Source: a bacterium (lineage in GTDB: Bacteria; ARS69). From it: a stretch of DNA of 55,635 nucleotides. The notes beneath the pieces were generated by a model that saw only the letters and a program-made list of their open reading frames with translations, was not told the DNA's origin and did not search any database. Both the position numbers and the translations under genes were made by a program. Of this stretch, positions 4,414-40,497 are shown in pieces. The stretch covers positions 1-55,635 of the forward strand of contig JALGZR010000007.1 in assembly GCA_025774805.1 (NCBI GenBank), in the 5' to 3' direction. Positions within the stretch are counted from its first letter, which is position 1. Every line of letters starts with the position of its first letter.

Positions 4414-4716
4414 GATGCTCCCCCTGCTTCCGGCCACGAACGGGCTACCGAATCGCTCCGATTCCACGATCTTGGACTCTCCTCCCGAAACGGCTGATTG
4501 AACAGTACCAGCTCGCAGATCGTGCTCACACCAGCAGGATCCGGATCTCTCGATCAGGAACTCCGACCCCCCCGAATGACCCTCTATGTGCTTTCGTTTC
4601 CGTTCCGCGCGGCTCCTCTCCGCAAGTCAGGGGGAGAGAATTGCGCATCCCGGGTCTGGTCGGGCCCAAGGGAATCTCGAATCCCAACCTGTTTAGAAAC
4701 AATCCTTTAACCCGGA

Positions 4717-20504: not shown

Positions 20505-20531
20505 CGGCCGCCCGAAAGGGAGATCCATCCT

Positions 20532-22148: not shown

Positions 22149-22150
22149 AC

Positions 22151-22978: not shown

Positions 22979-23940
22979 AGGGGTTCTGGGGCACCTGGCT
23001 CCGGCTGGGGGTCGGCCTCGGGGCGCTCGCCTTCCTGATCGCCCGGGTGGACATGGGCCGGGCCGCGGAGACGCTGAGGACCGCCGACCCGGCGTGGATC
23101 GGATTGGCGCTGGCCGTTCAGGGGCTGAGCAAGACCTGCTGGGTCCGCCGGTGGGGGACCCTTCTCGGCGTGACCGGAACGCACCCGGGCGCGGCCACTC
23201 TTCTTCGCTTGATTCTCGTCGGGCTGTTCTTCAACAACTTCCTTCCCTCGTCCATCGGGGGAGACGTGGTCCGGGGGATCGGCTTGGCGAGGACTGGGGT
23301 CCCCCGGGCTGCGGCGGCGGCCACGGTGCTGGCGGACCGGCTGATCGGGCTCTTCACCCTGGGCATCATGGCGGCGCTGGGAGGGCTCCTGGGGGCGATC
23401 TTCTGGCCCGCGGACGGGCCGTGGGTGGCGGCGGCCGTGTTCGCGCTCGGAGTCGTGGCGGCGATCCCGTTGGTGACGCGTCCCGAGGTCCTCGACCGAA
23501 TCGCCCGCTCCCGCCTGATTCCGCTTTTCGGGAGAGTCGCCGGCCGGATCCGCAAGCTGATCGACCGGATCTCCTTTCTGTCGGGGCGGCGGCGGGCGGT
23601 CACCCGGGCGGTGGCGCTCTCTCTCGGGCTCTCGGCATGCTCGGCGGTCTATCATTGGTCGGTGGGCCGGGCGATCGGCCTTCCCGTCCCCCTGGCGGCC
23701 TTCTTCGTGATCGTCCCGACGGTCATGCTGTTCGCTGCGCTGCCGATTACCTTGAATGGGCTCGGGGTCCGGGAGCTGGGCTTCGTCGGGCTCCTGGGGG
23801 CCCAGGGGGTACCCCCCTCGACCGCGGCGGTGTTCGCCTTCCTCGCGTTCGCGGGGACCTTCGGATTCGCCATCGCGGGCGGGATTCTGTTTCTGGTGGG
23901 CGGCCGTCACGCGGATCCCCGCGACGGAGGTGCGGCATGA
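22975..23940 (+). CDS. flippase-like membrane protein (lysylphosphatidylglycerol synthase TM / UPF0104), copy 1
   Basis: 321 residues, about eight hydrophobic helices. Signature FFNNFLPSSIGGDVVRGIGLAR is the conserved loop of the LPG_synthase_TM family (the AglD/GtrA-independent flippase-like group). GT2, such proteins and GT-C enzymes often occur together in lipid-linked sugar transfer. It is a candidate for moving or handling a polyprenyl-phosphate sugar. A second homologue lies at 24980, on the other side of the GT2 gene. ATGA overlaps at both ends show tight coupling. Confidence 0.85.
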   Translation: MKGFWGTWLRLGVGLGALAFLIARVDMGRAAETLRTADPAWIGLALAVQGLSKTCWVRRWGTLLGVTGTHPGAATLLRLILVGLFFNNFLPSSIGGDVVRGIGLARTGVPRAAAAATVLADRLIGLFTLGIMAALGGLLGAIFWPADGPWVAAAVFALGVVAAIPLVTRPEVLDRIARSRLIPLFGRVAGRIRKLIDRISFLSGRRRAVTRAVALSLGLSACSAVYHWSVGRAIGLPVPLAAFFVIVPTVMLFAALPITLNGLGVRELGFVGLLGAQGVPPSTAAVFAFLAFAGTFGFAIAGGILFLVGGRHADPRDGGAA

Positions 23941-24974
23941 AGACAGTGCGGACCGAGGTTCGTCCCTCCCGCCCGGGGGAGCGCCGGGAGCCGAGCGAGC
24001 CCACGGGCTCGACGAGGCTCAGCATCTCGTTCGTGGTCCCGCTCTACAACGAGGTGGAGAACGTCGATCTTCTCGTCGCGGAGGTGCGGTCGGTGATGGA
24101 CGGATCGAATCGGGAGTGCGAGGTCCTCCTGATCGATGACGGCTCCACCGACGGGACGGCGGAACGGCTCGCCGGAGTGCCCGCGATGGACCCGCGCTTC
24201 CGGGTGATCCTGCTGCGGCGCAACTTCGGTCAGACGGCGGCGATGTCCGCCGGCTTCGACCATGCGCGGGGCGACGTCATCGTGGCGATGGACGGCGACC
24301 TCCAGAACGATCCGGCGGACCTCGAGATCCTGATGGAGAAGATCGAAGGGGAGGGCTACGACATCGTCAGCGGCTGGCGGAAGCGGCGCCGTGACCCGCT
24401 GTTCAGCCGCAAGGTCCCCTCCTGGCTGGCGAACCGTCTGATCGGGTGGCTCACCGGCGTGCGCCTTCACGACTACGGCTGCTCGTTGAAGGCCTACCGG
24501 GCCGAGGTGCTCCAGAACGTCCGGCTCTACGGCGAGATGCACCGCTTCATCCCTGCCCTCGCGAGCTGGGGAGGGGCCCGGATCACCGAGGTGCCGGTCA
24601 GCCATCGACCGAGGACCCGGGGTACCTCGAAGTACGGTATCAATCGAACGATTCGAGTTCTACTTGATCTGATCACTGTCAAGTTCTTGCTTTCCTTCGC
24701 GACAAGGCCACTTCAGGTGTTCGGGCTTTGGGGCCTGGGGATGTTCGGGGTCGGCAGCCTGCTGACGGGCTATCTCGCCTACATCCGCCTCTTTCACGGC
24801 TCCCCGCTCTCGGATCGCCCGCTCCTGATGCTCGGGATTCTCATGATCCTGATGGGAGTGCAGCTCGTCAGCATGGGGCTCCTGGCGGAGATCAGCATTC
24901 GTACGTACCACGAGTCGCAGGAAAAGCCGACCTACGTGATCCGGGAGATCGTGGAGGATGATCAGGAGGTCTGA
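23937..24974 (+). CDS. DPM1/GtrB-like family 2 glycosyltransferase
   Basis: 345 residues. GT-A catalytic domain with SFVVPLYNEVENVD, LLIDDGSTDGT, the metal site AMDGDLQNDP, and FGQTAAMSAGFDHARGDV; two C-terminal membrane helices (LFGLWGLGMFGVGSLLTG-like and LMLGILMILMGVQLVSMGLL). This architecture makes polyprenyl-phosphate-linked monosaccharides at the inner membrane. About 25 extra N-terminal residues rich in Arg and Pro precede the fold. Overlaps the flippase-like gene by four bases. Confidence 0.92.
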   Translation: MKTVRTEVRPSRPGERREPSEPTGSTRLSISFVVPLYNEVENVDLLVAEVRSVMDGSNRECEVLLIDDGSTDGTAERLAGVPAMDPRFRVILLRRNFGQTAAMSAGFDHARGDVIVAMDGDLQNDPADLEILMEKIEGEGYDIVSGWRKRRRDPLFSRKVPSWLANRLIGWLTGVRLHDYGCSLKAYRAEVLQNVRLYGEMHRFIPALASWGGARITEVPVSHRPRTRGTSKYGINRTIRVLLDLITVKFLLSFATRPLQVFGLWGLGMFGVGSLLTGYLAYIRLFHGSPLSDRPLLMLGILMILMGVQLVSMGLLAEISIRTYHESQEKPTYVIREIVEDDQEV

Positions 24975-24979
24975 GACGC

Positions 24980-25915
24980 GTGAGCCGGAGGTGGCCCTGG
25001 TCGACGGTCGGGAAGCTCGCGGTGAGCGCTGCTCTCATCGGCTTCCTGGGAGTTCGGTACGGCGGCGATCCGGCGTTTCGGCGGACGCTGGGGGAGTTGG
25101 ATCTGCGGGCCTTCTTCGCGGCGGAGGCCGTGGTCGCCGGAGGCCTCTTTCTCTCCGCCCTCCGTTGGAAGATCCTGCTTCGGGCTGCGGGTGTGTCTCT
25201 GGGGTTCTGGAGATCCCTCCGTCTGTATCTTGTCGGCTACTTCTTCAACTTCTTCCTGCCGACGACCGTCGGGGGCGATGTCGTCCGGGCCATGGGCCTG
25301 GGGAGCCGGGCCTCGCTGCCGGTCGTGGGAGGGTCGATCGTCGTCGAACGAATCCTCGGCTTCGGTTGTCTGCTGGTCATCGGCATCCTGGCGAGCTTCG
25401 GTCTCCCCTCCCTGGCCGTGGCCCGCGGTGTCCTGCTGCTGAGCGCGGCCCTCTACGTGGGGGGGCTCGCTCTGATCCTGCTCGTCCCCCTTCCCCCCGT
25501 GGATCGGGGGGGATGGACCGGACGGATCCTGGGCGGGCTCCGGCGCACCGCCCTGGAGATCCGCTCCTACGGATTCCACGGAGCGGCGCTCGGAGGGGGG
25601 CTCCTGCTCTCCCTCGGGTGGCAGCTCTCCCTCGTGGCCGCGAACGCCATCCTCTCGCGTGGGTTGGGCGGGGTGGCTCCCCTGAAGAGCCTGCTGGCCC
25701 TGATTCCCGTCGTGCAGGCGATCACGATGATCCCGGTGAGCTTCGGAGGACTGGGCATCCGGGAGGTCGGGTACGAGTACTTCTTCCGGAGCTCCGGATT
25801 CGATCCGGCCGGGGCAGTCGCGCTCGGCGTGGGCTGGCTCGGCGTGACGATCGCGTTGGCCCTCAAGGGCGGTCTCGTCTACCTGACGTCCCCGGTGGGG
25901 GAGCGGGAGGCGTGA
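24980..25915 (+). CDS. flippase-like membrane protein (LPG synthase TM family), copy 2
   Basis: 311 residues from GTG 24980, five bases after the GT2 stop. The same loop as copy 1 appears (FFNFFLPTTVGGDVVRAMGLGSR), plus IPVSFGGLGIREVGYEYFF, matched by LPITLNGLGVRELGFVGLL in copy 1. About eight membrane helices. Two paralogues in one operon suggest two lipid-linked substrates or a heteromer. Function is inferred from family and context only. Confidence 0.85.
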   Translation: MSRRWPWSTVGKLAVSAALIGFLGVRYGGDPAFRRTLGELDLRAFFAAEAVVAGGLFLSALRWKILLRAAGVSLGFWRSLRLYLVGYFFNFFLPTTVGGDVVRAMGLGSRASLPVVGGSIVVERILGFGCLLVIGILASFGLPSLAVARGVLLLSAALYVGGLALILLVPLPPVDRGGWTGRILGGLRRTALEIRSYGFHGAALGGGLLLSLGWQLSLVAANAILSRGLGGVAPLKSLLALIPVVQAITMIPVSFGGLGIREVGYEYFFRSSGFDPAGAVALGVGWLGVTIALALKGGLVYLTSPVGEREA

Positions 25916-25916
25916 G

Positions 25917-27680
25917 GTGACGAACGTCGGGTTCCCCCGCGCGGTCGCCTCCCGGGAGGTGGGGCTCCTCGCGATTGTCCTCGGGGGCGCGCTCGTCGTC
26001 CGCCTCTGGGGAATCACCTTCGGACTGCCCCACGTCTACCACCCGGACGAGGGTTTCGAGGTGTACCGCGCCCTCCGACTGGGGATGGGCGGGTTCGACA
26101 TGGGTCGCGTCGCGAAGGGGGGCTACTACCTGATTCTGTTCGTCGAGTACGGACTGTATTTCGTGTGGCTCTTCCTGACCCGGGCGGTGAGCAGCGTGCA
26201 CGAGTTCGCCGAGTACTTCGTCCGCGACCCCTCCGGATTCTGGAAGATCGGCCGGGTCACGACCGCACTCATGGGCACGGCGACGGTGGGCCTCGTGTGG
26301 TGGCAGGGCCGGAGAATGGCAACCGCTCGGGCGGGCCTTCTCGGCGCGCTCTTTCTCGCGCTGTCCCTCCGGCACGTGATCGATTCCCACTACGTGACCG
26401 TGGACGTGCCGATGACCCTCTTCACGCTGTGGGCGATCGTCATGGTCGTCGAAGACGTGGCCGGCAGATCCCGTCTGAGGCCCTGGATCTTTGCCCTGGT
26501 GGCTGCGTTCGCCGTTCTGAACAAGCTCCCGGCGGTCGTCCTCTTCGTGCCCTACCTCGTCGGCGGGTGGCTCCGGGGCGGTTTCCGAGGGGAGCGGGGT
26601 CTTCTGACCTGGGCCACGATCCAGCCGGCTCTGTACGCCGCGATCATCTACTGTGTGGCGAATCCCGGATTCGTCGTCTCCATCGCCGGCACGTTCCGGA
26701 TGGTCGGAGAGGTCGTGGGAGGGGCGGAGGAGACGGGGGGCGAGTATGCCTACGTCGAGCAGAAGGCGAATCTCTGGCTCTTCTACGGCCGGGTGCTGCT
26801 CGACTCCCAGGGACCGGGGCTCTTGGGGCTCTCCCTGCTGGGCGCGGGAGTCGGGCTCGCGCGCCGATTCCGCGAGGCGCTGCTTCATCTGCTCTTCGTC
26901 GTACCGTTCTTCCTCTTGATCGCGGGCGCGACGTCGGTGCACCTCTACTACGCCCGCTACATCGTTCCCCTGCTGCCCGGCCTGTGCCTCCTGGCCGGCA
27001 TCGGCCTGGACGAGCTCGTTCGCCGGCTCCGCGGCCCCGAGTCGCTGGGAATGGGGGTCGCCGTCGCTCTGGCGGGCCTCGTCCTCGTCGAGCCGGGACT
27101 CGCGGTGACGCAGTGGAACCGGCGACAGTCCCGCACGGATACGCGGACGATCGCGGTGGAGTGGATTCAGGCGAACGTCCCCCACCGATCCCGGGTTCTG
27201 CTCGAGGGCTTCCCCGAGGAATCGGCCCAGCTCGCGATCCCGATCGGAGACCTGAAGAGGAACGTGAGGGAGATGATCGAGGAGCTCCACGAAACGGACC
27301 CGGGCAAAGCCCGGTTCTGGGAGCTCAAGATCGAGACGATGACGCCTCCCCTTTACGATCTCGTGACCGTGCGCCACTTCGAGCCCTGGGAGACGCTGGA
27401 GGACTACCTCGAGGACGGCGTGGAGTACGTCGTTCTTCGAACCGACTTCTTCCGTCCCGACCGGAGAGTGAGCCGGAAGCACGATCCGATCACGGTGGAG
27501 ACCCGGACGGCGTTCTACCGGGAGCTCACCGGGTCGTCGCGGGCGGAGCGTCTCGCCTCGTTCGAGGCCGACGAGAACGGAGCTCCGGGATTCGACATCG
27601 AGATCTGGCGCGTCGAGCCGTACGAGGACGAGAGCGAGTTCGACCCGACGTCGGATGACGACGCGGAGGAAACGTCCTGA
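25917..27680 (+). CDS. GT-C glycosyltransferase, family 39/ArnT-like
   Basis: 587 residues from GTG 25917. After the first membrane helix comes the short loop with HPDEG, the acidic pair expected in the first external loop of PMT/ArnT-type enzymes. Around ten further hydrophobic helices follow (SVHEFAEYFVRDP loop, GTATVGLVWWQGRRM, HYVTVDVPMTLFTLWAI), then a soluble C-terminal domain of about 180 residues (VEWIQANVPHRSRVLLEGFP; DLVTVRHFEPWE). It would transfer a sugar from a polyprenyl phosphate on the periplasmic side to protein, lipid or glycan. It comes right after the GT2 and flippase-like pair. Confidence 0.88.
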   Translation: MTNVGFPRAVASREVGLLAIVLGGALVVRLWGITFGLPHVYHPDEGFEVYRALRLGMGGFDMGRVAKGGYYLILFVEYGLYFVWLFLTRAVSSVHEFAEYFVRDPSGFWKIGRVTTALMGTATVGLVWWQGRRMATARAGLLGALFLALSLRHVIDSHYVTVDVPMTLFTLWAIVMVVEDVAGRSRLRPWIFALVAAFAVLNKLPAVVLFVPYLVGGWLRGGFRGERGLLTWATIQPALYAAIIYCVANPGFVVSIAGTFRMVGEVVGGAEETGGEYAYVEQKANLWLFYGRVLLDSQGPGLLGLSLLGAGVGLARRFREALLHLLFVVPFFLLIAGATSVHLYYARYIVPLLPGLCLLAGIGLDELVRRLRGPESLGMGVAVALAGLVLVEPGLAVTQWNRRQSRTDTRTIAVEWIQANVPHRSRVLLEGFPEESAQLAIPIGDLKRNVREMIEELHETDPGKARFWELKIETMTPPLYDLVTVRHFEPWETLEDYLEDGVEYVVLRTDFFRPDRRVSRKHDPITVETRTAFYRELTGSSRAERLASFEADENGAPGFDIEIWRVEPYEDESEFDPTSDDDAEETS

Positions 27681-28576
27681 TGGTCGGACCGGGCTCGGTG
27701 AGGAACGCGCTGACCGTCGACGTCGAGGACTGGTTCCAGGTCTCGAATCTCGATTCCGTGGTGCGCCGCGCCGAGTGGGAGCGCTACCCGTCGCGCGTGA
27801 CCGGAAACACCCGTCGGCTCCTCGACCTGTTCGAGGCGCACCGGGTGAAAGCGACGTTCTTCGTGCTCGGATGGGTCGCGGAGCGGCGGCCGGATCTCGT
27901 CGGCGAGATCGCGGGGGCCGGACACGAGGTCGCGTGCCACGGCTACGGACACGATCTCGTGTACTCGTTGGGGCGGCGGGGATTCGAACAGGACCTGGAC
28001 CGCTCGGTCGCGGCGATCGAGGCCGCCGCCGGCGTGCGCCCCCGGGGATACCGGGCGCCGAGCTTCAGCATCGATCACCGATCCCTGTGGGCGTTCGAGG
28101 TTCTCGTCGATCGGGGCTTCACCTACGACTCGAGCGTCTACCCGGTGAGGCACCCGCGGTACGGGATCCCGTCCTTTCCGCGCGTTCCCCGGCGCGTCCG
28201 CACGGCAGCGGGGGAGGAGATCCGGGAGTTCCCGATGACGACGCTGCGGATCCTCGGGGGAAACATCGGAGCGTCGGGAGGGGGGTATCTGCGCCTGCTT
28301 CCTCTCGCGGTGGTGGAGACCGCCTTCGCGCGCATGAACGGTGCCGGCCATCCCGCGGTTCTCTACGTGCATCCGTGGGAGGTCGACCCGGAGCAGCCCC
28401 GCTTGAAGCCGAAGGGGCTGGGTCGGATCACGCACTACGCGAACCTGGCGCGCACCGAGGGACGGCTGGGCCGTCTCCTGCGCCGATTCGACTTCGGCAC
28501 GATGGAGGAGTCGCTCGCGGCGGCTTCCACGCTGGAGATCGAGCCGATCGAGGTCGGGACATGCGCGGGAGCGTGA
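27680..28576 (+). CDS. exosortase-system polysaccharide deacetylase (TIGR03006-like)
   Basis: 298 residues; start overlaps the previous stop (TGATG). NodB-fold: TVDVEDWFQVSNLDS at residue 12 onwards, KATFFVLGWVAERRPDLV, CHGYGHDLVYSL (metal His pair), GYRAPSFSI, GFTYDSSVYPVRHPRYG, and the DUF3473-type C-terminal part YVHPWEVDPEQPRL. This subfamily accompanies exosortase loci. It is expected to remove N-acetyl groups from the exported polysaccharide. No signal peptide is visible, as usual for this group. Confidence 0.94.
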   Translation: MVGPGSVRNALTVDVEDWFQVSNLDSVVRRAEWERYPSRVTGNTRRLLDLFEAHRVKATFFVLGWVAERRPDLVGEIAGAGHEVACHGYGHDLVYSLGRRGFEQDLDRSVAAIEAAAGVRPRGYRAPSFSIDHRSLWAFEVLVDRGFTYDSSVYPVRHPRYGIPSFPRVPRRVRTAAGEEIREFPMTTLRILGGNIGASGGGYLRLLPLAVVETAFARMNGAGHPAVLYVHPWEVDPEQPRLKPKGLGRITHYANLARTEGRLGRLLRRFDFGTMEESLAAASTLEIEPIEVGTCAGA

Positions 28577-29451
28577 CCGGGGGAGCCCTCCGCCGGCCGG
28601 ACTCAGGACTGGTCCTGCTCCTGGTCGCCGTGGGGGTGCTCCACGGTCCGCTGTTCCCGGAGCTGCGCGCCGACTGGTTTCGCTCGGGCGACTTCTCCCA
28701 CGGATTCCTCGTTCCGATTCTCTCAAGCTGGCTGCTCTGGCAGCGTCGCGACGCGATTTGGCGGGCTCCCGCCCGCCCGAGCTGGACCGGAGCCCTGCTG
28801 CTCGCAGGGGGAATCCTGCAGTACCTGGTGGGGGTCGCGGCCTCGGAGTTCTACCTCCAGAGAACTTCGCTGGTACCGGTGATCGGGGGCTGGATCCTCC
28901 TGCTCTGGGGACCCGCCCGGGCCCGCCTGTGCCTGTTTCCGGTGGCCTTTCTGCTGCTCATGATCCCGCCGCCCACCCTGATCTGGAGCACGCTCTCGGT
29001 ACCCCTCCAGCTCGTCGCGTCGCGTGCCGCGGGAGGGCTGCTCGATGTCGTGGGTCTCGAGGCGGTCCGTGAGGGAAACGTGATCCATCTCGACACGTGC
29101 TCCCTCGAAGTCGCCCGGGCGTGCAGCGGACTTCGCTCCCTGGTGACGCTCCTGGCGGTGAGCGCGCTCCTCGCGGAGGGAAGCCTGCTCCGCGGGCGCG
29201 GGCCGGAGAGGACGATCACCAAGATCGCGCTTTTTCTGCTCGCCGTGCCCGTGACGATCGGGGCGAACGGCCTGCGCGTGGCGGGTACCGCGCTCGCCGT
29301 CTCCCGCTTCGGGCCGGAGGCGGCGGAGGGAGGCGCCCACGACGCGGCCGGCCTCGTGGTCTTCGTGATCTCACTCGCCGCCCTGTTCCTCGGACGGAGG
29401 ATCCTGGCATGGATCGATACACGGCGGCCCTCGCCCTCGCCTGCCTCCTGA
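28561..29451 (+). CDS. exosortase (EpsH-type PEP-CTERM sorting enzyme)
   Basis: 296 residues, about eight membrane helices. The catalytic set is intact: Cys188 in EVARACSGLRSL, Arg239 in IGANGLRVAGTAL, His260 in EGGAHDAAGL. The N-terminal motif GDFSHGFLVPILSSWLLW is typical. It cleaves proteins at the PEP motif and transfers them to an unknown acceptor at the membrane. Unlike exosortase A proteins with a fused EpsI part, this one is a stand-alone enzyme and EpsI is encoded by the next gene, overlapping by 43 bases. It also overlaps the deacetylase gene by 16 bases. Confidence 0.95.
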   Translation: MRGSVTGGALRRPDSGLVLLLVAVGVLHGPLFPELRADWFRSGDFSHGFLVPILSSWLLWQRRDAIWRAPARPSWTGALLLAGGILQYLVGVAASEFYLQRTSLVPVIGGWILLLWGPARARLCLFPVAFLLLMIPPPTLIWSTLSVPLQLVASRAAGGLLDVVGLEAVREGNVIHLDTCSLEVARACSGLRSLVTLLAVSALLAEGSLLRGRGPERTITKIALFLLAVPVTIGANGLRVAGTALAVSRFGPEAAEGGAHDAAGLVVFVISLAALFLGRRILAWIDTRRPSPSPAS

Positions 29452-30065
29452 CGGCGATCGGCGCCCTCGGCGGTCACGCGCTGCGGACCGGCGCGCCCGA
29501 AGCGGGAGAGGGAATCGACCTCGACCGGACCCCGCGGGTGATTGCCGGGCGTCCGTCCCGCGACGTGACCGTGGAAGATCGAGTGCGCGACATGCTCCGA
29601 TCGGACGCGCTTCTGATGCGGAGGTACGAGACCGAGGGAGAGCCGCCGGTCTGGGTTCTCATCGACTACCATCGCACGCAACGGTTGGGAGCGACGATCC
29701 ACTCCCCCCGGATCTGCTATCCGGGCGCGGGGTGGAGTGTCAAGGACGTCGAGACGACGACGCGCGACTGGGGCGCACGGCCGGAGCCGGTGCGCTGGCT
29801 GCGGCTCGAGCGGGGATCCGAGGAGATGATCGCCCTCTATTGGTACGAGACCCGCTGGGGGCGTTCGGCCCGCGAGACCGCACTGAAGATGGACATCGTC
29901 CGGTCGGCGGTGTCGCGGCGCGCGGCGGACGCCGCGCTGGTTCGGATTTCCACCCCGGTCGTTGCGGGAGACCGTCAGGGCGCGCGGGAACGGCTCACCC
30001 GCTTCCTCGCCGAGGGAGAGGAACTGCTTCGGCAGGAGCTCCCCTTCGGGACGAGCGGGGCATGA
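29409..30065 (+). CDS. epsI: EpsI-domain exosortase partner
   Basis: 218 residues from ATG 29409, inside the end of the exosortase gene. An N-terminal membrane anchor (AALALACLLTAIGALGGHAL) and an EpsI domain with VWVLIDYHRTQ, the signature IHSPRICYPGAGWSVKD, and MIALYWYETRWGRS. EpsI is of unknown activity but goes with exosortase in exopolysaccharide loci. Start choice is supported by the anchor following at once. Confidence 0.92.
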   Translation: MDRYTAALALACLLTAIGALGGHALRTGAPEAGEGIDLDRTPRVIAGRPSRDVTVEDRVRDMLRSDALLMRRYETEGEPPVWVLIDYHRTQRLGATIHSPRICYPGAGWSVKDVETTTRDWGARPEPVRWLRLERGSEEMIALYWYETRWGRSARETALKMDIVRSAVSRRAADAALVRISTPVVAGDRQGARERLTRFLAEGEELLRQELPFGTSGA

Positions 30066-30934
30066 GCCCGGGCGGGGAGCCCATTCTCCTGGCCCGGGTC
30101 GGGATCTTCGTCGAGTGCTGGCGGCAAGCCCTTCTCTCGCTCCGCCGGCCGTTTCCGTTCGCGATCCTCCTCGGACTGTTCGCGATCCAGGCTGCCCTGA
30201 TCGCCGCACTCGAGAGCTTCCCCCGCCCTCCGATCGGTTCCGCCCTGATCCCCGTGTTCCGCGCCGCGGGTGGGGAGAGGGCGCTCCACTACCCGGGGGC
30301 GTTCGAGATTCTCCCCCGCGTCTACGATTGGCTCGATCCGGGGATCTTGTTCCTGGCGGGGACCTTCTTCTCCGCCTGGGTCGCCGCCGCCCTGCCGGAG
30401 GCCTTTCTGGGGGATCGCCTCCGGTTCGCCGGGTCGCTCCGCCTCGGAATCGTGCGGACCCCCGCGGCCTGGGGGGCACTGCTTCCGGGGTTCGTGGTCT
30501 GGGGGGCCGCGCCGATCCTCGCCGACACGCTGCCCGACGTGTCGCGGGGACCGGTGCCGTTCCGGGAGGTCTTCGGCCTCTTGCTGCTGCTGGTCGAGGT
30601 GGGAGCGCGCGTGCTCCTGGCCTACGCGATTCCGTCCGCGGTTCTCGGGGGTCTGTCTTCGGTCGACGCGTTTCGACGCAGCATCGTCCTGGCGAGCCAT
30701 CGTCTCTGGACGACGCTCGGGTTCCTCGTCGTGAGCGGACTCCCCGCGCTCATGTTGCGGCGGTGGCGCGGTGATCTCCCTCTCGACTTCACCTACGATG
30801 ACCCCGAGATCGCCCTCGTCTGGATCTGGAGGACGGCGATCGCCGGCCTGATCGGAACCTATTTCCTGATCGCGACCACGACCCGGCTCTACCTGCATCT
30901 CGAGAGCGAGGGCGGAGAGGAGAAGCCGTCGTGA
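30062..30934 (+). CDS. six-helix membrane protein of the exosortase operon
   Basis: 290 residues with roughly six hydrophobic segments (FAILLGLFAIQAALIAAL, ILFLAGTFFSAWVAAALP, WGALLPGFVVWGAAPILA, EVFGLLLLLVEVGARVLL, TLGFLVVSGLPALML, AGLIGTYFLIATTTRLYL). I do not recognise a family with confidence; the last part (LSSVDAFRRSIVLASHRLW) resembles the membrane domain of some DUF975/glycerophosphodiesterase-anchor proteins. ATGA overlaps with EpsI and with the following lipoprotein imply a shared job in the exosortase pathway. Confidence 0.85.
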   Translation: MSPGGEPILLARVGIFVECWRQALLSLRRPFPFAILLGLFAIQAALIAALESFPRPPIGSALIPVFRAAGGERALHYPGAFEILPRVYDWLDPGILFLAGTFFSAWVAAALPEAFLGDRLRFAGSLRLGIVRTPAAWGALLPGFVVWGAAPILADTLPDVSRGPVPFREVFGLLLLLVEVGARVLLAYAIPSAVLGGLSSVDAFRRSIVLASHRLWTTLGFLVVSGLPALMLRRWRGDLPLDFTYDDPEIALVWIWRTAIAGLIGTYFLIATTTRLYLHLESEGGEEKPS

Positions 30935-32424
30935 CCGGTTCGAGGGGCGCACGGACCCCGACGTCGCGACTCCCCGGCGCCGTCCTCCTCCCGCCGGCTC
31001 TGGCTCTGCTCGTCTTCGGGTGCGGGCAGGAGACGGAGATGTCCCGCCGCTTCGACGCGGAACGGACCCGGTGGCAGGCGGACCGGGAGGAGCTCAGGAT
31101 CCGGGACGACTTCGGCGGAGATCTTCCTCCCGAGAAACGCGAGCACATCCGGGAGCTGCACATCGAAGTCGATCGGGAGTACGGGGTCGAGGAGCCCCCG
31201 TCTTCTGCGTCACTCGCGAACGCGGACGTGGCGCGGCGCCTGCGGATCGCCGGAGCTTCGGCGCTCTATGCCGCGGAGCTGGCCGCCCACGACGATTCGA
31301 ACGAGGAGCTGGCCGAGGAGTACGCCCGGATTGGCCGTGTGTACGACTTCGACCGGGAGGTCGCGATCCGTGCCGGGATCGGGGAGGGCCGCACGCGTGA
31401 GCATCTGGGCGATCTTCGAGGGGCGCTCGACCGGTACGTGTCCCTGCTCGACGGCCCCGCGGCCCGCGCGCCGGGACGCCTCGGCTCGGGAGATCTTCTC
31501 CTGCTCGACCTGGAGATCCACTCGGGCCTGCTGGCCCGCCGCTGCCTGGCGCCGGAGGAGGCGCAGGGGACGATCCGTCGCGTGGTCCGGAGAATCGAGC
31601 GGCGCACGGACGGCTGGGACGCGAATCCCGTCCGAAGCCGTCTGAAGCGGCGGCGGGCGGAGGGGCACTTCCTGGCCGACAATTGGAGCGAGGGTCTGCG
31701 GGAGCTGCGGGAGCTTGCGGACTCCGCGGGAAGCGCGGAAGAGCGGGCCGAGCTCGAGCTCCTCCTGGGCGAGGTCCGGGAGGCCGCGGGTGTGGACCGG
31801 TCCGCGGCGGAGGCGAGCTACCGAAAGGCGGCCGCGCAGGGGGATCGGCTCATGGACGGGGCCGCGGCCCGGGTGAGACTGGGTGACCTTCTGATCCGCT
31901 CCGGCCGCGCGTGGGAGGCTCTCGAGGTTCTGGACGCGCTGCTCGGGTTGGGAGCGCGTGTCCTCGAGGGACGGCAGGCGGAGGCCCTCGTCCTGAAGGC
32001 CCGATCTCTGGTGCGGTTGGATCGTTGGGAGGACGCTCTCCCCGTGCTGAATCGGGCCGCGGCCCTGGAGCCCCGGGGGCCGTTTCCGCTCGTCGCGGCC
32101 GCCCTGTCGATGCGGCGCCTTCGGCGGTTCACGCGGCCCGTCTCGGAGCCCGCGATCGTCCGCTTGGTCGAGGTTGCCGAGCGGGTGCCCTCGGAGCATC
32201 GGTGGGCGCGCGTTCCCCGACCGTGGGTGGAGGTCTTTCGCGAGGAGAGGACGCGCGGGGCGTGGCGCGACTGCGTCGAGGATCTGCTGCTGGCGGCGAG
32301 AATCGCCTCGGATCAGGAGGTGCGCTCGCGAGCCCGAGCAGAGGCGGCCCGGCTGGCGGAGGAGCGGCTTCGGGACGTCGAGTGGGCCGAGACGATCCGG
32401 GAGGCGGCGGTCAAGGGGCGCTGA
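30931..32424 (+). CDS. TPR-rich lipoprotein
   Basis: 497 residues from GTG 30931. Signal peptide with lipobox LLVFGCGQ (Cys at about residue 31), so a lipid-anchored periplasmic protein. The mature part is almost all helical with TPR-like pairs (GRTREHLGDLRGALDRYVSLL; LVRLDRWEDALPVLNRAAALEPRG). Likely a scaffold at the inner face of the outer membrane or on the periplasmic side of the inner membrane. It terminates the chain of overlapping genes started at 22975. Confidence 0.88.
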   Translation: MTGSRGARTPTSRLPGAVLLPPALALLVFGCGQETEMSRRFDAERTRWQADREELRIRDDFGGDLPPEKREHIRELHIEVDREYGVEEPPSSASLANADVARRLRIAGASALYAAELAAHDDSNEELAEEYARIGRVYDFDREVAIRAGIGEGRTREHLGDLRGALDRYVSLLDGPAARAPGRLGSGDLLLLDLEIHSGLLARRCLAPEEAQGTIRRVVRRIERRTDGWDANPVRSRLKRRRAEGHFLADNWSEGLRELRELADSAGSAEERAELELLLGEVREAAGVDRSAAEASYRKAAAQGDRLMDGAAARVRLGDLLIRSGRAWEALEVLDALLGLGARVLEGRQAEALVLKARSLVRLDRWEDALPVLNRAAALEPRGPFPLVAAALSMRRLRRFTRPVSEPAIVRLVEVAERVPSEHRWARVPRPWVEVFREERTRGAWRDCVEDLLLAARIASDQEVRSRARAEAARLAEERLRDVEWAETIREAAVKGR

Positions 32425-32468
32425 GATCCGGACGAACGAATGGGGAACAGGAGGCAGCCCGATCCTGC

Positions 32469-32498
32469 TTGACACATCTGCGGCGCGTTCGCGACATT
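32469..32498 (+). promoter_or_regulatory. possible internal promoter before the tandem DUF5683 gene
   Basis: A perfect TTGACA at 32469-32474; the best -10 boxes about 17-18 bases on (CGACAT/GACATT) are poor. It lies in the only real gap of this operon (32425-32533). Confidence 0.3.
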
Positions 32499-32533
32499 GG
32501 CGCGACAATGGGTCGGTTTCTTTGGGTGGTGAA

Positions 32534-33754
32534 GTGATCGTCCGACGGCGAGCACATCGAAATGGAAGCGGGCGCATCGCGTGGCCGGGCGCGTTGGCCG
32601 CGGGCGTCCTGGTGGCGAGTCTCGGAACGGTCGGGTCTGCCGGCGCTCAGACCGGCCCGGGAACCCGGCTGATGGGACCCCAGTCCGTCTATGCCGAAGG
32701 ACGGGCTCTCGAGTTCCGGACCGATCTTTCCTGGACCCGGCTGGTCTTCGGGGGAGAGGAGAAGATCGCGGGCACTTCACCCCTCCGGGTGCCGGGCCCC
32801 CTTGCCGGTGATTTCTGGTTGTCCGCCGGCGGCCCCGGTGTCGAGACCCAGAGGGGCCGGGTGCGGATCCGCCTGGATGAAAACGGGTCGCGGATCTCCC
32901 ACTACGGACAGCCGCCGCTCCAAGAGTCCCTGATGCGCTCCGCGCTCTTTCCGGGGTACCCCCAGCTCCGGTCCGGACACTACGGAAGGTCGTTCTACTT
33001 CGCGGCCCTGGGCGTGACGGCCGGGGTCCTGGCGATCCTGGCCCAGGACGAGGTCTCGGACGCCGAAGACCGGCTGGACGCGGCGGAGAGGGCAGCGTCG
33101 CAGGCGGTGACCGCCTCGGAGCGGACCCGCCTCCTGCTCGACGCACAGGATCGTCTGGAGGACTACGACTACGAGATCGATCGCCGGAACCTGTACCTGA
33201 TGTCGCTCGCGGCGGTGTGGGGCGTCAGCGCGGTCGATGCGGTGATCTTCGCCCCCGGTTTCAACGTCGCGTTCGCGGACGAGAACTCCCTGACGCTGGG
33301 TATGAGACGGAAGACACGCTTCGACGCGATGCTTCGTTCCCTCGTGCTGCCCGGTCTCGGGCAGGCGTACAATGGGCAGGGGCGGAAGGCCGCGCTGGTG
33401 GCGATGGGCGCCGCCGGTGCGATCGGATGGCTCATTCACGAACAGGATCGGTACAACGATGCGGTTCGGGACTACGAGAAGGTGAACGCGCGCCTCGGGG
33501 CGGCGTGGGAGATCGAAGAGCTCGAGATCCTGCGCGAGCGGGGCAACCGGCTCTTCGAAGAGGTCGACGACCGATACCGGAATCGCAACATCGCTCTCGG
33601 GATCGTCGGCGGCTACTGGGGGCTCGCGATCCTGGACACCGCTCTGTCCTTCGGGGAGCCGTGGGGGCGGAAGCGGGTCTCCCCGGGAGGATCGTCCCTC
33701 GGGTGGAGCGTGGATCCCGCGCGAGGCCGCGTGGGGGCTCGAATACGGTTCTGA
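32534..33754 (+). CDS. secreted/membrane protein with two DUF5683-like units
   Basis: 406 residues from GTG 32534; a signal peptide (LAAGVLVASLGTVGSAGAQ) follows. Two related segments each start with a 'SxxLPGxxQ' motif: LMRSALFPGYPQLRSGHYGR and AMLRSLVLPGLGQAYNGQGRK, each leading to a hydrophobic helix pair and an acidic coiled-coil stretch. Known DUF5683 proteins are membrane proteins of unknown role, common in FCB bacteria. The duplicated arrangement looks specific. It is adjacent to lipoproteins and the exosortase set, so a role in surface layer assembly is inferred. Confidence 0.82.
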   Translation: MIVRRRAHRNGSGRIAWPGALAAGVLVASLGTVGSAGAQTGPGTRLMGPQSVYAEGRALEFRTDLSWTRLVFGGEEKIAGTSPLRVPGPLAGDFWLSAGGPGVETQRGRVRIRLDENGSRISHYGQPPLQESLMRSALFPGYPQLRSGHYGRSFYFAALGVTAGVLAILAQDEVSDAEDRLDAAERAASQAVTASERTRLLLDAQDRLEDYDYEIDRRNLYLMSLAAVWGVSAVDAVIFAPGFNVAFADENSLTLGMRRKTRFDAMLRSLVLPGLGQAYNGQGRKAALVAMGAAGAIGWLIHEQDRYNDAVRDYEKVNARLGAAWEIEELEILRERGNRLFEEVDDRYRNRNIALGIVGGYWGLAILDTALSFGEPWGRKRVSPGGSSLGWSVDPARGRVGARIRF

Positions 33755-33764
33755 GGGAAAAGTG

Positions 33765-35393
33765 ATGACTCGCCTACGGTCACTCGGCATCGCCGCGACG
33801 GGGTTGGTCGCGGCCGTCCTGATCCCGACGGGGTGCGGGAAGAAGCACGACGATCTGATCGATCCCGGTCCGATCGACCCCTCCGCGCTCCCCCCCGTGC
33901 CGATGGACCTGGCCCTCGGTGTCGCCACCTCGCGCGTCGTTCTGACGTGGTCGGTGGAGGATGCCACCGGAGTCACGGAATTTCGGATCTACCGGGCCGA
34001 GGGGGTGGAGGGGGAGTTCCTGTATCGCTCCTCGACCACGACCACCCGGTTCGTGGACGATCAAGTACTGAACGGGACGACCTACCGGTACCAAGTGTCC
34101 GCGGTGAAGGGCGCACTGGAAGGCCAACGGTCGATCACGGTGTCCGCGGTCCCCGACGTGTTCGGTCTCGTGATCGAAGGAGGCGCGGAGGTCACCTCAG
34201 GGAACAACGTCGCCCTGGGCACACGACGGGTAGCAGTCGCCCTGGTCGCGCCTCCGTCGACGGTTTTCTGGTCGCTCTCCGAGGATTCGACCCTGGCGGG
34301 GGCCCCCCTGAATCGGTTCGTTCCGAGTGCGCCCGTCACGACGTACGTACTCTCGCCCGGGGACGGACGGAAGACGATTTACGGTCGCTATGTGGGCGAT
34401 GGCGGCTCGATCTCCGAGCTCGTGCACGCGTCCATTCGTCTCGATACACGCGCGCTGATCCTCGAGGTGACCGAGGACTCCGAGGGTCGCACTCTCGGCA
34501 TCGGCGACACTCTCCACATTGCGCTGATCGCGGACACGACGGGCGGCGCGGCGTTCGTCCGGATCGACGAGGATTACCCCAGTATCGAGCTCTTCGATGA
34601 CGGATCGGCCGGCGATCCGACTCCGTTCGACGGGGCCTATGAGCGAGACTTCGGCGTGACCGCCGGGCTCGAGGTCATGGAGCGAGTCCTCATCGGATCG
34701 TTCCGTGACGACCTCGGGAACCAAGCGTCTTCGGTATTCTCGACGACCCGGGTGACGATCGCCGTCCCGCCCGGACCGATCTCCTTCCGTCGATCCGCGG
34801 TTCAGGTCGTGGGGAGCTCGGTCCGTCTTCGCTGGACCGAGAACACGGACTCGGACTTCGCCGAGTATCGCCTCTACCGGACCGATCCCGACCCAGCGGC
34901 GACCGTCAGCGTGGACGACAATCTGGTCGCGATCATCACCGACCAGGTCGGGCTCGAATGGACCGACACCGGTCTCGAGGGGGGCCGCCGGTACCAGTGG
35001 GGGGTCACCGCATACGACGTCCACGGGTTCCGGGCCCCGCTGGACACGTTGACCGTCGAGAGCGTCGGCTTCGACCCCGTCCTCACCGGCCCGGGGCACG
35101 CTCCGGCCACGGGAGATCTGGTGACGACGTTCCAGTTCGACTGCACCTACAGCCACCCCGCGAATCTGGCTCCCGCCCGGGTGGAACTGGTGGTCGACGG
35201 CACGTTCCTGGTTCCCATGACCCAGACCGGTCCGGGGAACGACTGGGTGGGCGGTGAGGAGTTCTCGGTCGGGATCAGCCTGGGGGCCGGGAGCCACGTG
35301 TATGCCTTCGAGGCCATCGCGGTCGACGACTCCCGAGTCCGGTTGCCGGCGGATCCCGCGACGGACTTCCTCGGTCCGACCGTGACGAACTGA
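33765..35393 (+). CDS. lipoprotein with fibronectin type III domains
   Basis: 542 residues from ATG 33765 (AGGGA 8 nt upstream; GTG three bases earlier is less likely). Lipobox VLIPTGCGKKH with Cys near residue 25. Two FnIII domains are clear: about 45-130 (VPMDLALGVATSRVVLTWSV ... YRYQVSAVKG) and about 345-435 (SSVRLRWTENTDSDFAEYRLYRT ... RYQWGVTAYDVHG). Between them are beta-rich parts (GDGRKTIYGRYVGDGGS; LFDDGSAGDPTPFDGAYERDF). Probably displayed at the outer membrane, binding glycan or protein. Last gene of the run. Confidence 0.88.
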   Translation: MTRLRSLGIAATGLVAAVLIPTGCGKKHDDLIDPGPIDPSALPPVPMDLALGVATSRVVLTWSVEDATGVTEFRIYRAEGVEGEFLYRSSTTTTRFVDDQVLNGTTYRYQVSAVKGALEGQRSITVSAVPDVFGLVIEGGAEVTSGNNVALGTRRVAVALVAPPSTVFWSLSEDSTLAGAPLNRFVPSAPVTTYVLSPGDGRKTIYGRYVGDGGSISELVHASIRLDTRALILEVTEDSEGRTLGIGDTLHIALIADTTGGAAFVRIDEDYPSIELFDDGSAGDPTPFDGAYERDFGVTAGLEVMERVLIGSFRDDLGNQASSVFSTTRVTIAVPPGPISFRRSAVQVVGSSVRLRWTENTDSDFAEYRLYRTDPDPAATVSVDDNLVAIITDQVGLEWTDTGLEGGRRYQWGVTAYDVHGFRAPLDTLTVESVGFDPVLTGPGHAPATGDLVTTFQFDCTYSHPANLAPARVELVVDGTFLVPMTQTGPGNDWVGGEEFSVGISLGAGSHVYAFEAIAVDDSRVRLPADPATDFLGPTVTN

Positions 35394-35543: not shown

Positions 35544-36338
35544 TTGCAGGAGCCTCGCAGGGTACCCGAACACGAAGGAGACGGTCAGGCGCTGGCGGTT
35601 GACGGCGCGGGAAGCGGCGTTCTCGCCCTGCGCACGAGGGTCCGGTACCCGCGGCCCCGCCCCACGAGCCCCCTGCGGCGGACGGTCGACATTGTCGGCG
35701 CGAGTCTCCTCTGCGCGCTGCTCCTCCCGCTGTTCGGGATCATCGCCCTCGCGGTCCGGATCAGCACCCCGGGGCCGGTCATCTACCGGCAGACGCGCGT
35801 CGGCATCAATCGACGGTGCGGGGTGGATCGCCGGAGCCCCGTCGGCCACGCGGTTCCCGTGGATCGGCGCCGCCAGGACCGGCGCCGGGTGGCGAGCGCA
35901 GGACGGCTCTTCCGCATCTCCAAGTTCCGGACCATGGTTGACGGCGCGGAGAGCCGCCGGGGACCGACCTGGGCCGCGAAGAACGACGCCCGCGTCACCC
36001 CGGTGGGTCGCTTTCTGCGGCGGACCAGGTTCGACGAGCTGCCCCAGCTCGTCAACGTCCTCCGGGGGGACATGTCTTTCATCGGACCGCGCCCCGAGCG
36101 TCCTTTCTTCGTCGAGAAGTTCCGCCGGGCGATCCCGGGGTACATGGACCGCCTCACGGTTCCGCCCGGAATCACGGGGCTGGCCCAGGTCGAGCACAAA
36201 TACGATACGAACCTGGAAGACGTTCGCCTCAAGTTGGAGTATGATGTCCGGTATGTACGGCGGCGAAGCTTCTGGCTCGATCTCCGTATCCTTCTCAAGA
36301 CGATCCGCGTGGTGCTCTCCGGCTCCGGAGCGCATTAG
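35544..36338 (+). CDS. polyprenyl-phosphate sugar-1-phosphate transferase (second copy)
   Basis: 264 residues from TTG 35544 with GGAGGG 7 nt upstream. One membrane segment (VDIVGASLLCALLLPLFGIIALAV) and the full PF02397 core: GPVIYRQTRVGINRR, FRISKFRTM, PVGRFLRRTRFDELPQLVNV, FIGPRPERP, VPPGITGLAQV. The same Arg-rich insert as the paralogue at 18449 sits between the two core motifs (about 35 residues with DRRSPVGHAVPVDRRRQDRR). Two short initiating transferases at the two ends of the locus imply two lipid-linked glycans or a past duplication. Confidence 0.92.
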   Translation: MQEPRRVPEHEGDGQALAVDGAGSGVLALRTRVRYPRPRPTSPLRRTVDIVGASLLCALLLPLFGIIALAVRISTPGPVIYRQTRVGINRRCGVDRRSPVGHAVPVDRRRQDRRRVASAGRLFRISKFRTMVDGAESRRGPTWAAKNDARVTPVGRFLRRTRFDELPQLVNVLRGDMSFIGPRPERPFFVEKFRRAIPGYMDRLTVPPGITGLAQVEHKYDTNLEDVRLKLEYDVRYVRRRSFWLDLRILLKTIRVVLSGSGAH

Positions 36339-36485: not shown

Positions 36486-36824
36486 GTGGAGGTGTCAGTG
36501 CGAAAGGCCGGCAAGCTGAGCATACTGGATCTACGGGGGAAGATCCTGGGCGGAGCGGAGTCCGATGTGCTCCGGCACGAGCTCGATCGGATCCTCGAGG
36601 AGGGAGAGCTTCGCCTTCTGGTGAACCTGAGCGACGTTCCGTGGATGAACAGCGCGGGGCTCGGCATCCTGCTCTCGGCTTACTCCCGCATGAAGGAGCG
36701 GGGCGGCACGATTCGCCTGTTCGGGGTGGGGGAGAGGGTTCGCGGAATCCTGAGAACGACCAAACTCCTCACGGTTCTGGACGTTCTTGACGATGAAGAG
36801 GCAGGAATCCAGAGCTTTGTCTGA
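36486..36824 (+). CDS. STAS-domain anti-sigma factor antagonist-like protein
   Basis: 112 residues from GTG 36486 (GGGAGG close upstream). Complete single STAS domain: LSILDLRGKILGGAESDVLR, LVNLSDVPWMNSAGLGILLS with Ser56 at the usual phosphorylation position, and RILRTTKLLTVLDVLDD-like end. Such proteins are switched by kinase and SpoIIE-type phosphatase; a SpoIIE phosphatase is encoded at 46586-49099. It may also serve a different partner switch in polysaccharide production. The next gene starts inside its 3' end. Confidence 0.92.
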   Translation: MEVSVRKAGKLSILDLRGKILGGAESDVLRHELDRILEEGELRLLVNLSDVPWMNSAGLGILLSAYSRMKERGGTIRLFGVGERVRGILRTTKLLTVLDVLDDEEAGIQSFV

Positions 36825-37140
36825 GTTCCGTTTCATCCCCCCGGGGGGATCGGTGGACCGGAGACGGGAATCGCGCCGGCCGGGTACGTACCGGGCCGAG
36901 TCCCGTCTCACCTCGGGAATCGAGTTGATCCTCCTCCTGGTGCTGATCGGCGCACTGGGCGTCGCGGCCGGGAAGTTCTTCTCGATGCTCGACCGAATCG
37001 GGACCTCTTGGACTCGGGGATTGCCTGTCGCCGGCCTGTTCCTGGCGGCGGCGTACATCGCCGGCCGCCGGGTGATTCGGGTGGCGCGGACGATGCGAAA
37101 CGGTGCGGAGATCCGGAAGGGGAGAGGACGGCATGACTGA
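36793..37140 (+). CDS. small membrane protein between STAS and GGDEF genes
   Basis: 115 residues from ATG 36793, overlapping the STAS gene by 32 bases. A basic 40-residue N-terminus is followed by two membrane helices (GIELILLLVLIGALGVAAGKF; GLPVAGLFLAAAYIAGRRVI) and a basic end. No family recognised. Its position suggests it belongs to the same signalling unit. Confidence 0.78.
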   Translation: MKRQESRALSEFRFIPPGGSVDRRRESRRPGTYRAESRLTSGIELILLLVLIGALGVAAGKFFSMLDRIGTSWTRGLPVAGLFLAAAYIAGRRVIRVARTMRNGAEIRKGRGRHD

Positions 37141-38173
37141 ACCGATCGATCCGCCCCAGCGGGGGGCCATTCTCGGACGGATGCTCTCCCTTCCTCCCCT
37201 GGGGCAGATCGGGCGACACAAGTACGGTCCGTTCCTGCGCGGGGCACTCGAGCTGTTCCTCGCCGACGGGATCACGGTCGGTTTCTGGGTCTCTCCGCAG
37301 CAGCTCCGCCAGTATCGGGTTCTGGCCGGTGAGACCGGGCGCGACGTCCACGAGTCGGTGCTCGACCCGGGGCACACGGCCGGGGCCATGCGTTCCGTTC
37401 TCCGCCGGGGGAGCACCGAGCTCGTAACCCACCTGCCCGATCCGCGCTTCGACCCCTCCGTGGAGGGATACCCCGGCCACGAGTCGATCTCCGGGCTCTT
37501 CGTCGGACTGCGGATGCGGGACGAGCCTCCGGCGGTCCTGGGAGCGCACCGTTTTCGAGGTGATCCTTTCGACGCGTCGGACCGGGACCTGGCCAGCTCG
37601 CTCTCACCGGTCTTCGCGTCGGCCCTCGACAACCTCCGGCGTTTCGGTCGGGCCGAAGAGCTCTCGGTGACGGACGGTCTGACCGGGGTCTACAATTACC
37701 GCTACCTGCGCAGCGCGCTCGACAAGGAGGTGGCGCGGGCGAAGAGATTCCGCGAGCAGTTCTCCATCATCATGCTGGACGTCGATCACCTCAAAGAATA
37801 CAACGACGTCCATGGTCACTTGCAGGGAAGCGAAGTTCTTCGCCGCCTGGCCCAAGTCGTGATGGGCGAGATGAGGAGTGCTGACGTCGTGGCGAAGTAC
37901 GGCGGCGACGAGTTCGTGATCGTCCTTCCCCAGACCACTCGGGAAGGGGCCCGTGTACTCGCGGAGAGGATCCGAGGCGCCGTCGAGGCCCATCGCTTTC
38001 CGGGAGAGGAAGAGGGAATGAAGATCACGACCTCGATGGGGATCGCGCAGTTCCCCGAGGACGGAGAGGGAGCGCGCGAACTGCTCGAGGCCGCCGACGC
38101 GACTCTGTACCGGGCGAAGCGATCCGGCCGCAACCGCGTCGCCATGCTCGCTTCCGGCTCCTATCCGAAGTAG
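37133..38173 (+). CDS. diguanylate cyclase with N-terminal GAF-like sensor
   Basis: 346 residues from ATG 37133 (GGGGAGAGG upstream). The N-terminal 170 residues look like a GAF-type domain (GPFLRGALELFLADGITVGF ... LAGETGRDVHESVLDPG). GGDEF domain in the second half with the intact active site GGDEF at 257-261, and an RxxD inhibitory site (Arg248-Asp251) five residues before it. It makes c-di-GMP and should be product-inhibited. Next to polysaccharide genes, this points to c-di-GMP control of matrix production. It overlaps the preceding gene by eight bases. Confidence 0.93.
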   Translation: MTEPIDPPQRGAILGRMLSLPPLGQIGRHKYGPFLRGALELFLADGITVGFWVSPQQLRQYRVLAGETGRDVHESVLDPGHTAGAMRSVLRRGSTELVTHLPDPRFDPSVEGYPGHESISGLFVGLRMRDEPPAVLGAHRFRGDPFDASDRDLASSLSPVFASALDNLRRFGRAEELSVTDGLTGVYNYRYLRSALDKEVARAKRFREQFSIIMLDVDHLKEYNDVHGHLQGSEVLRRLAQVVMGEMRSADVVAKYGGDEFVIVLPQTTREGARVLAERIRGAVEAHRFPGEEEGMKITTSMGIAQFPEDGEGARELLEAADATLYRAKRSGRNRVAMLASGSYPK

Positions 38174-39534: not shown

Positions 39535-40497
39535 TTGGCCAGGTTTCTCGTGACCGGGGGAGCCGGTTTCATCGGCTCCAACCTGGTTGATGCGCTCGTC
39601 GCCTCGGGGGACGACGTCGTCGTCCTCGACGATCTCTCCAGCGGCAAGATCGAGAACCTCGAGACGAGTCGCTCCGCGATCACGTTCGTGGAGGGGCGGA
39701 TCCAGGATCCCGCTGCGGTCGCCAGGGCGATGGCGGCGGTGGACTACGTGCTCCACCATGCCGCCCTCGCATCGGTCCCGCAGTCTCTCGAGGACCCCCG
39801 TCTCAATCACCGGGTCAACGTCGATGGGACGCTGGAGCTTCTCCTCGCCGCGCGGGACGTCGGGGTGAAGCGGTTCGTTTTCGCGTCCTCCTCCGCCGTG
39901 TACGGCGATCGCAGGGAGTCTCCGACGGCCGAGGAGCTCCCGACCGACCCCCTCTCCCCGTACGGGGCGTCGAAGGTCATCGGAGAGGACTACTGCCGGC
40001 AGTTCACGGCGGTGGGGTGGGTCCCGTGCGTCTGTCTGCGCTACTTCAACGTTTTCGGCCCCCGCCAGAATCCGAACTCCGACTACGCGGCGGTGATCCC
40101 GATCTTCTTCCGGCGGCTGCTGGAGGGACGGGGCGCGACCATCTACGGCGACGGAGAGCAGACGCGGGATTTCGTGCACGTGGAGAACGTCGTCCGCGCG
40201 AATCTCCTGGCGGTCGAACGGAGCGAGGGGATCGGCGGCGTCTTCAACATCGGCTGTGGTGAGGCCATCACTGTGAACGATCTCTATCGGGAGATCGCCG
40301 CCATCGTGGGGAGCACCCGGAAGGCCACTCACGCCCCGGAGCGTGCGGGCGAGATCCGTCACTCCCTCGCGGACGTCGGCCGTTCGCGGCGGCGACTGGG
40401 ATACGAGGTCCGGACCGACTGGCGAACCGGCCTGGAAAAGACCGCCGGCTGGTACCGCGAGCAGTACGGACCGGTCGGGGAGTCGGATCGACGATGA
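39535..40497 (+). CDS. NAD-dependent UDP-sugar 4-epimerase (WbpP/TviC-like)
   Basis: 320 residues from TTG 39535, with GGGGGGAGGA upstream. Short-chain extended fold: TGGAGFIGSN at 7-16, HHAALASVPQSLEDP (the loop typical of UDP-GlcNAc/GlcNAcA epimerases), Tyr143-xxx-Lys147 in SPYGASK, RYFNVFGPRQNPNSDYAAVIP. Paired with the dehydrogenase it could make a UDP-GalNAc(A)-type precursor. Its stop overlaps the next gene's ATG. Confidence 0.93.
   Translation: MARFLVTGGAGFIGSNLVDALVASGDDVVVLDDLSSGKIENLETSRSAITFVEGRIQDPAAVARAMAAVDYVLHHAALASVPQSLEDPRLNHRVNVDGTLELLLAARDVGVKRFVFASSSAVYGDRRESPTAEELPTDPLSPYGASKVIGEDYCRQFTAVGWVPCVCLRYFNVFGPRQNPNSDYAAVIPIFFRRLLEGRGATIYGDGEQTRDFVHVENVVRANLLAVERSEGIGGVFNIGCGEAITVNDLYREIAAIVGSTRKATHAPERAGEIRHSLADVGRSRRRLGYEVRTDWRTGLEKTAGWYREQYGPVGESDRR

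Follow-up and report, generated by a model that had tools for sequence, protein, structure and literature searches.

What are the four genes that follow the exosortase and EpsI genes in a 55,635-nucleotide stretch of bacterial DNA (GenBank assembly GCA_025774805.1, contig JALGZR010000007.1, positions 1 to 55,635 of the forward strand, GTDB lineage ARS69; here, the window), and do they all belong to the protein sorting machinery? The literature consulted does not settle how PEP-CTERM proteins get across the outer membrane once exosortase has processed them, and it names few partners other than EpsI and the Prs proteins. A preliminary description, made from the window sequence, proposed that the four genes might supply the missing parts. 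Comparison with other genomes leads us to a different reading, to which we assign a probability of roughly 0.6: the window carries a variant of the PEP-CTERM/exosortase locus set within an exopolysaccharide (EPS) operon, its four extra genes forming two separate pairs. A membrane protein of no known family (here, MEM) and a tetratricopeptide repeat (TPR) lipoprotein would serve sorting, while a DUF5683 protein and a fibronectin type III (FnIII) lipoprotein would serve EPS. The genes concerned are as follows.

28561-29451, + strand: exosortase (EpsH/Xrt family), general type (PF09721, 221 bits, 1.7e-65; TIGR02602)
29409-30065, + strand: EpsI, exosortase-associated protein (PF11984, 128 bits; TIGR02914, 102.6 bits, cut-off 42.8)
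30062-30934, + strand: MEM, membrane protein with about six transmembrane segments, no known family (hydropathy; profile search in 386 genomes)
30931-32424, + strand: TPR lipoprotein in the PrsT position, partner gene of MEM (lipobox; orthologues)
about 32534-33754 (start codon uncertain), + strand: envelope protein with PEGA and tandem DUF5683 (PF18935, two stretches, 72.5 bits)
33765-35393, + strand: FnIII lipoprotein with a weak choice-of-anchor-X-like segment (PF00041, two stretches)
17732-18028, + strand: 98-amino-acid PEP-CTERM protein, likely exosortase substrate (TIGR02595)

The exosortase and EpsI genes overlap by 43 bases, EpsI and MEM by 4 bases (30062-30065), and MEM and the TPR gene by another 4 (30931-30934). 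Coordinates and frames thus bear out the gene set after EpsI and the four-base overlaps given in the preliminary description. The four extra genes stand at the end of the EPS operon, and the frames are real genes, since orthologues at 31-55% identity keep the same order in two other genera.

Exosortase, MEM, and the TPR lipoprotein across genomes

The window and its genome contain a catalytic exosortase, EpsI and EPS genes alongside it, and PEP-CTERM substrates, the features that define a PEP-CTERM/exosortase system. The exosortase scores 191.5 bits against the general model TIGR02602 (cut-off, 105.55) and falls below the XrtA subtype model (TIGR03109, 179 bits; cut-off, 208); its catalytic residues Cys188, Arg239, and His260 are invariant in an alignment of three members from the window's phylum. 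Two PEP-CTERM matches above the cut-off were found in the window genome, one of them within the window at 17951-18022 (TIGR02595, 32.7 bits in the search of its own genome and 30.3 bits against a cut-off of 16). The gene containing it, which the preliminary description did not mention, encodes a protein with a signal peptide, a middle region of about 50 residues that is acidic and free of Cys, and a C terminus made of VPEPGT, a hydrophobic stretch, and RRRRR. Similarly small PEP-CTERM proteins (88-118 amino acids) occur in three genomes, which we denote G001, G002, and G003 (G and L numbers are our handles for genomes and loci). G003, which belongs to the same family and is 82% complete, has its PEP-CTERM gene at L043, and no exosortase was found in it, possibly because the assembly does not include one.

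Five genomes, all of one family, represent the window's phylum. In all three that bear an exosortase, the order is deacetylase, exosortase, EpsI, MEM, TPR, DUF5683, (FnIII), and sugar transferase, the FnIII gene being missing in G002 and shortened in G001; the other two lack the exosortase, MEM, and a DUF5683 orthologue. In a second phylum (that of G072), 17 of 20 genomes have an exosortase, and 17 loci were read (L038 and L085-L100). Within the reach of each contig, their order is sugar transferase, exosortase, EpsI, MEM, TPR, (PrsK-like kinase and PrsR-like regulator), DUF5683, and FnIII. MEM and at least a partial TPR gene lie directly 3' of EpsI in 16 of the 17 loci; the contig of the remaining genome, G131, stops after EpsI. 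G132 and G134 resemble the window in that DUF5683 follows TPR with no kinase or regulator between them, and G138 and G400 have the rearranged order MEM, TPR, exosortase, EpsI. A contig bearing the label Candidatus Eisenbacteria likewise has MEM adjoining EpsI. In every complete locus of both phyla, the MEM and TPR genes either share 4 bases or are separated by no more than 23. In G002 they form one continuous open reading frame with no stop between them (L026:11561-13915), a possible fusion. Exosortase and EpsI are likewise one fused frame in G126 (L096:13580-15130).

The association extends beyond gene order. In a profile survey of 386 genomes from many lineages, MEM had 18 strong matches, and a strong exosortase (E < 1e-20) was present in 16 of these 18 genomes, against 41 of the 368 others (Fisher 8e-13, a guide only, related genomes being counted as independent). 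All ten families with MEM include at least one genome with an exosortase, and in five of them the two genes are unlinked, on different contigs or far apart, yet still occur in the same genome. Of the 18, only G295 (90% complete) and G386 lack a strong exosortase, and they carry two and five PEP-CTERM genes, respectively, in the same stretch as MEM and TPR; the five of G386 are clustered beside them at L160:1-5353. PEP-CTERM genes in the second phylum number 0 to 5 per genome and mostly lie in longer reading frames. MEM-linked exosortases are spread over at least two and probably three distinct regions of an exosortase tree, whose bootstrap support is not fully settled. Among genomes lacking MEM, the surroundings of 40 exosortases, read over about 7-17 kb each, contained neither MEM nor a DUF5683 orthologue. 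Weak MEM matches in G278, G393, and G300 (E values of 3e-6 to 6e-4), genomes with no exosortase, were treated as unrelated membrane proteins. A gene neighborhood survey, which the preliminary description had proposed as its check, therefore finds MEM and TPR following exosortase and PEP-CTERM in gene order, and MEM following them across genomes even when unlinked. The comparison assigns both MEM and the TPR lipoprotein to the PEP-CTERM/exosortase system.

MEM itself resembles no described family. Hydropathy gives five transmembrane segments in the window protein and six to seven in five orthologues, so that its earlier description as a six-helix protein is apt. MEM had no Pfam, NCBIfam, or PDB family match, and a profile of 15 members searched against PDB gave no significant match. 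The nearest hits were to DUF7847, in 1 of the 15 members (14.8 bits; Pfam gathering cut-off, 28.7), and to GPDPase_memb, in one member only (E = 0.36). A scan of viral contigs for MEM gave no match, a scan of genome contigs gave two loci only, and no description of MEM was found in the open-licence literature.

The DUF5683 and FnIII genes in polysaccharide loci

The second pair behaves differently. DUF5683 (PF18935), here combined with PEGA, is a family of no known function, for which we found one unrelated mention in the literature. The window protein scores 72.5 bits (Pfam gathering cut-off, 26.7), and PF18935 matches 12 of 12 members of its family (at E 0.01) and PEGA 9 of 12. The preliminary description called the protein a tandem DUF5683 protein, which holds for the window's phylum, where it has two copies and about 370-406 amino acids; the second-phylum orthologues (about 245-263 amino acids) are too short for two copies, so the tandem arrangement is confined to the window's phylum. 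The FnIII protein has the lipobox IPTGC in the window and one nearer the consensus in orthologues (e.g., GLSGC and FLYGC). The full-length protein contains two or more FnIII domains, the only domains recovered by a PDB profile search, and a choice-of-anchor X (choice_anch_X) match occurs in 9 of 9 members, that of the window lying below the cut-off.

The FnIII profile matched 104 genomes, mostly through partial FnIII-domain matches, and 15 were kept as full length (single match, E < 1e-80, at least 335 positions). Seven of these 15 lack a strong exosortase. Six of the seven also lack MEM and are the only MEM-less genomes of the set; none of the six has a strong exosortase, so the EPS pair can occur in the absence of MEM. 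The DUF5683 and FnIII genes adjoin a sugar transferase gene, a frequent neighbor of the pair, in G105, G258, G102, and G385, together with a deacetylase gene in the last three, and Wza/Wzc-type genes in G049. In these five genomes no exosortase was found near the pair or elsewhere in the genome. G262, with a short weak exosortase-family match only, has no DUF5683 gene in the flanks examined. Because the two genes are paired beside EPS genes in genomes free of exosortase, the pair is tied to the polysaccharide locus and is not specific to sorting.

These distributions bear on the proposal that all four genes form the sorting apparatus, as membrane partner, periplasmic scaffold, and outer-membrane receptor. 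The four genes do adjoin exosortase and EpsI in the window's phylum and in the second phylum, and the same set recurs in G195; however, the pairing of DUF5683 and FnIII with EPS genes in the five exosortase-free genomes, and the presence of the sorting genes without the FnIII gene in G002, make this proposal very improbable. The preliminary description had itself named a location mainly away from exosortase as the observation that would refute it, and by that test the DUF5683 and FnIII genes, which also occur in exosortase-free genomes, count as genes of the polysaccharide locus. Its proposal of missing sorting parts survives for MEM and TPR, which follow exosortase and PEP-CTERM, and fails for DUF5683 and FnIII; the suggested outer-membrane receptor displaying processed proteins is supported by no result and is rejected. 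The same comparison thereby strikes two false leads from the list of sorting parts.

Relation to known systems and possible functions

The closest described system is the PEP-CTERM/EpsH (XrtA-type) system (Haft et al. 2006, PMC1569441). The window shares with it the exosortase and EpsI, the TIGR03006 deacetylase, the EPS operon, a PEP-CTERM substrate, and a TPR lipoprotein, and relatives also share PrsK directly after the TPR gene. It differs in having the additional MEM family paired to the TPR gene, an exosortase below the XrtA cut-off, and a genome that yielded only two, very small PEP-CTERM proteins. PrsK, PrsR, and PrsT, the last a TPR lipoprotein, were named in the 2006 study as genes that co-occur, frequently in tandem and close to EPS genes (PMC1569441). 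Because the TPR lipoprotein of the window occupies the slot of PrsT, calling all four genes uncharacterised, as was done earlier, is slightly too strong. Its lipobox is LVFGC, and a lipobox is also present in orthologues; past the lipid-bearing Cys runs the conserved stretch R-[FY]-x-AE-[KR]. The TPR repeats of the window protein score 20 bits, under the Pfam cut-off of 32.7, and three of five orthologues pass TIGR02795 (94.4, 96.5, and 135.8 bits; cut-off, 90.1), with two below it (72.4 and 87.2). The kinases directly 3' of TPR in L038, G159, and G347 pass the PrsK model TIGR02916 (317-383 bits; cut-off, 300), and the regulators of the window and L038 fall short of the PrsR model TIGR02915 (376.3 and 345.6 bits; cut-off, 502.6).

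Two further loci are comparable. In Aquincola tertiaricarbonis, a TPR lipoprotein gene likewise lies near a PEP-CTERM gene, and this gene, prsT, is required for floc formation (PMC9850573); a MEM-like gene is unmentioned in the portion available, and the window TPR protein fails the PrsT model. In Nostoc, the cyanoexosortase B locus likewise places an exosortase among Wza/Wzc-type polysaccharide genes and a partner gene downstream of it, but the exosortase family and the accessory gene are different, and no MEM or TPR genes are reported in the accessible part of that source (PMC12188702).

A plausible mechanism can be outlined from these comparisons. The small acidic PEP-CTERM protein (17732-18028) would be exported by Sec, its C-terminal helix anchoring it in the inner membrane, and exosortase with EpsI would cleave it at the PEP motif. 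MEM, presumably in the inner membrane beside exosortase, would be complexed with the TPR lipoprotein, whose solenoid may extend into the periplasm and bind the processed protein, or its EPS partner, on the way to the Wza/Wzc-type exporter; the two would thus help to process the sorted protein or to hand it over. Where PrsK and PrsR directly follow, as in the relatives, MEM and TPR would probably also keep the kinase informed of the pathway's state. The PEGA-DUF5683 and FnIII proteins would serve as structural components of the envelope at the site of EPS export. Beyond this, it is a tentative suggestion that one type of exosortase machine has MEM as an obligatory membrane subunit, hitherto undescribed, which together with the PrsT-like TPR protein would remove cleaved PEP-CTERM proteins from the exosortase and convey them across the periplasm to the polysaccharide exporter. 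In any case, MEM, which tracks exosortase and PEP-CTERM in ten bacterial families and is paired with a TPR lipoprotein, is a named candidate for functional study.

Two other explanations concern MEM and TPR themselves. They may be a sensory front end that monitors periplasmic EPS or unprocessed PEP-CTERM protein and controls expression of PEP-CTERM genes through PrsK-PrsR and sigma-54, off the path of the sorted protein. In favor of a sensor, MEM, TPR, kinase, and regulator follow one another in that order at many loci of the second phylum as well as in G159, G295, G347, and G195, the kinases tested exceed the PrsK cut-off, and PrsT was named within a regulatory system (PMC1569441). MEM and TPR nevertheless occur without an adjoining kinase in the window, G001, G002, G132, G134, G138, and G400, and a search upstream of the small PEP-CTERM genes in the window's phylum yielded no convincing sigma-54 site, so that we consider a purely sensory role rather unlikely; the need for prsT itself in Aquincola floc formation is compatible with either role (PMC9850573). 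Alternatively, everything may be EPS machinery, with MEM and TPR aiding polysaccharide assembly or export; because exosortases sit in EPS operons, their tie to exosortase would then be indirect. Such a role would account for G259 and G386, where MEM and TPR lie beside sugar transferase genes with no exosortase nearby, and for MEM within the EPS clusters of G159 and G318. We judge it unlikely, however, given that strong exosortase is absent from all six MEM-less genomes with full-length FnIII and that the MEM genomes without strong exosortase still carry PEP-CTERM genes adjoining MEM and TPR.

The reading as two separate pairs, one for sorting and one for EPS, has points against it as well. The window TPR protein (about 500 amino acids, against 899 positions in the PrsT model TIGR02917) reaches 12.2 bits where 312.2 is required, and its best relative reaches 55.8. 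The window, L025, and L026 yielded no match to a PrsK-like kinase, so the signaling part of the mechanism may not apply here. Because 41 of 57 exosortase genomes lack MEM, MEM is not universal, and the co-occurrence counts make no correction for kinship among the genomes. The AlphaFold model of MEM has a mean predicted local distance difference test score of 45 and that of the FnIII protein 33, each built from two to three sequences; both were too poor to compare. Finally, any physical contact and any biochemical role of MEM and the TPR lipoprotein are inferences.

Surrounding genes

The polysaccharide setting of the locus is defined by the following neighbors.

19524-27680, + strand: upstream EPS operon (Pfam)
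27680-28576, + strand: XrtA-system type polysaccharide deacetylase (TIGR03006, 347 bits, cut-off 276.2)
35544-36338, + strand: bacterial sugar transferase on the 3' side of the four genes (PF02397, 9.6e-63)
40494-41924, + strand: NtrC-type response regulator, PrsR-like but below the PrsR cut-off (TIGR02915)

According to Pfam, the upstream operon encodes a Wza-type SLBB export protein, a Wzc/Wzz-type chain-length protein, a P-loop NTPase, two LPG_synthase_TM proteins, a family 2 glycosyltransferase (GT2), and a PMT-type protein; no Wzx or Wzy family match was found among the operon proteins scanned. The two LPG_synthase_TM (PF03706) paralogues, at 22975-23937 and 24980-25912, stand on either side of the GT2 gene. 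Between the sugar transferase and UDP-sugar dehydrogenase genes, positions 36486-38173 hold a short STAS-like antagonist frame and a GAF-GGDEF protein. Two large peptidase-like open reading frames on the minus strand, at 2728-4467 and 49778-52078, have C-terminal segments that, judged from the translations, resemble FlgD-type sorting tails.

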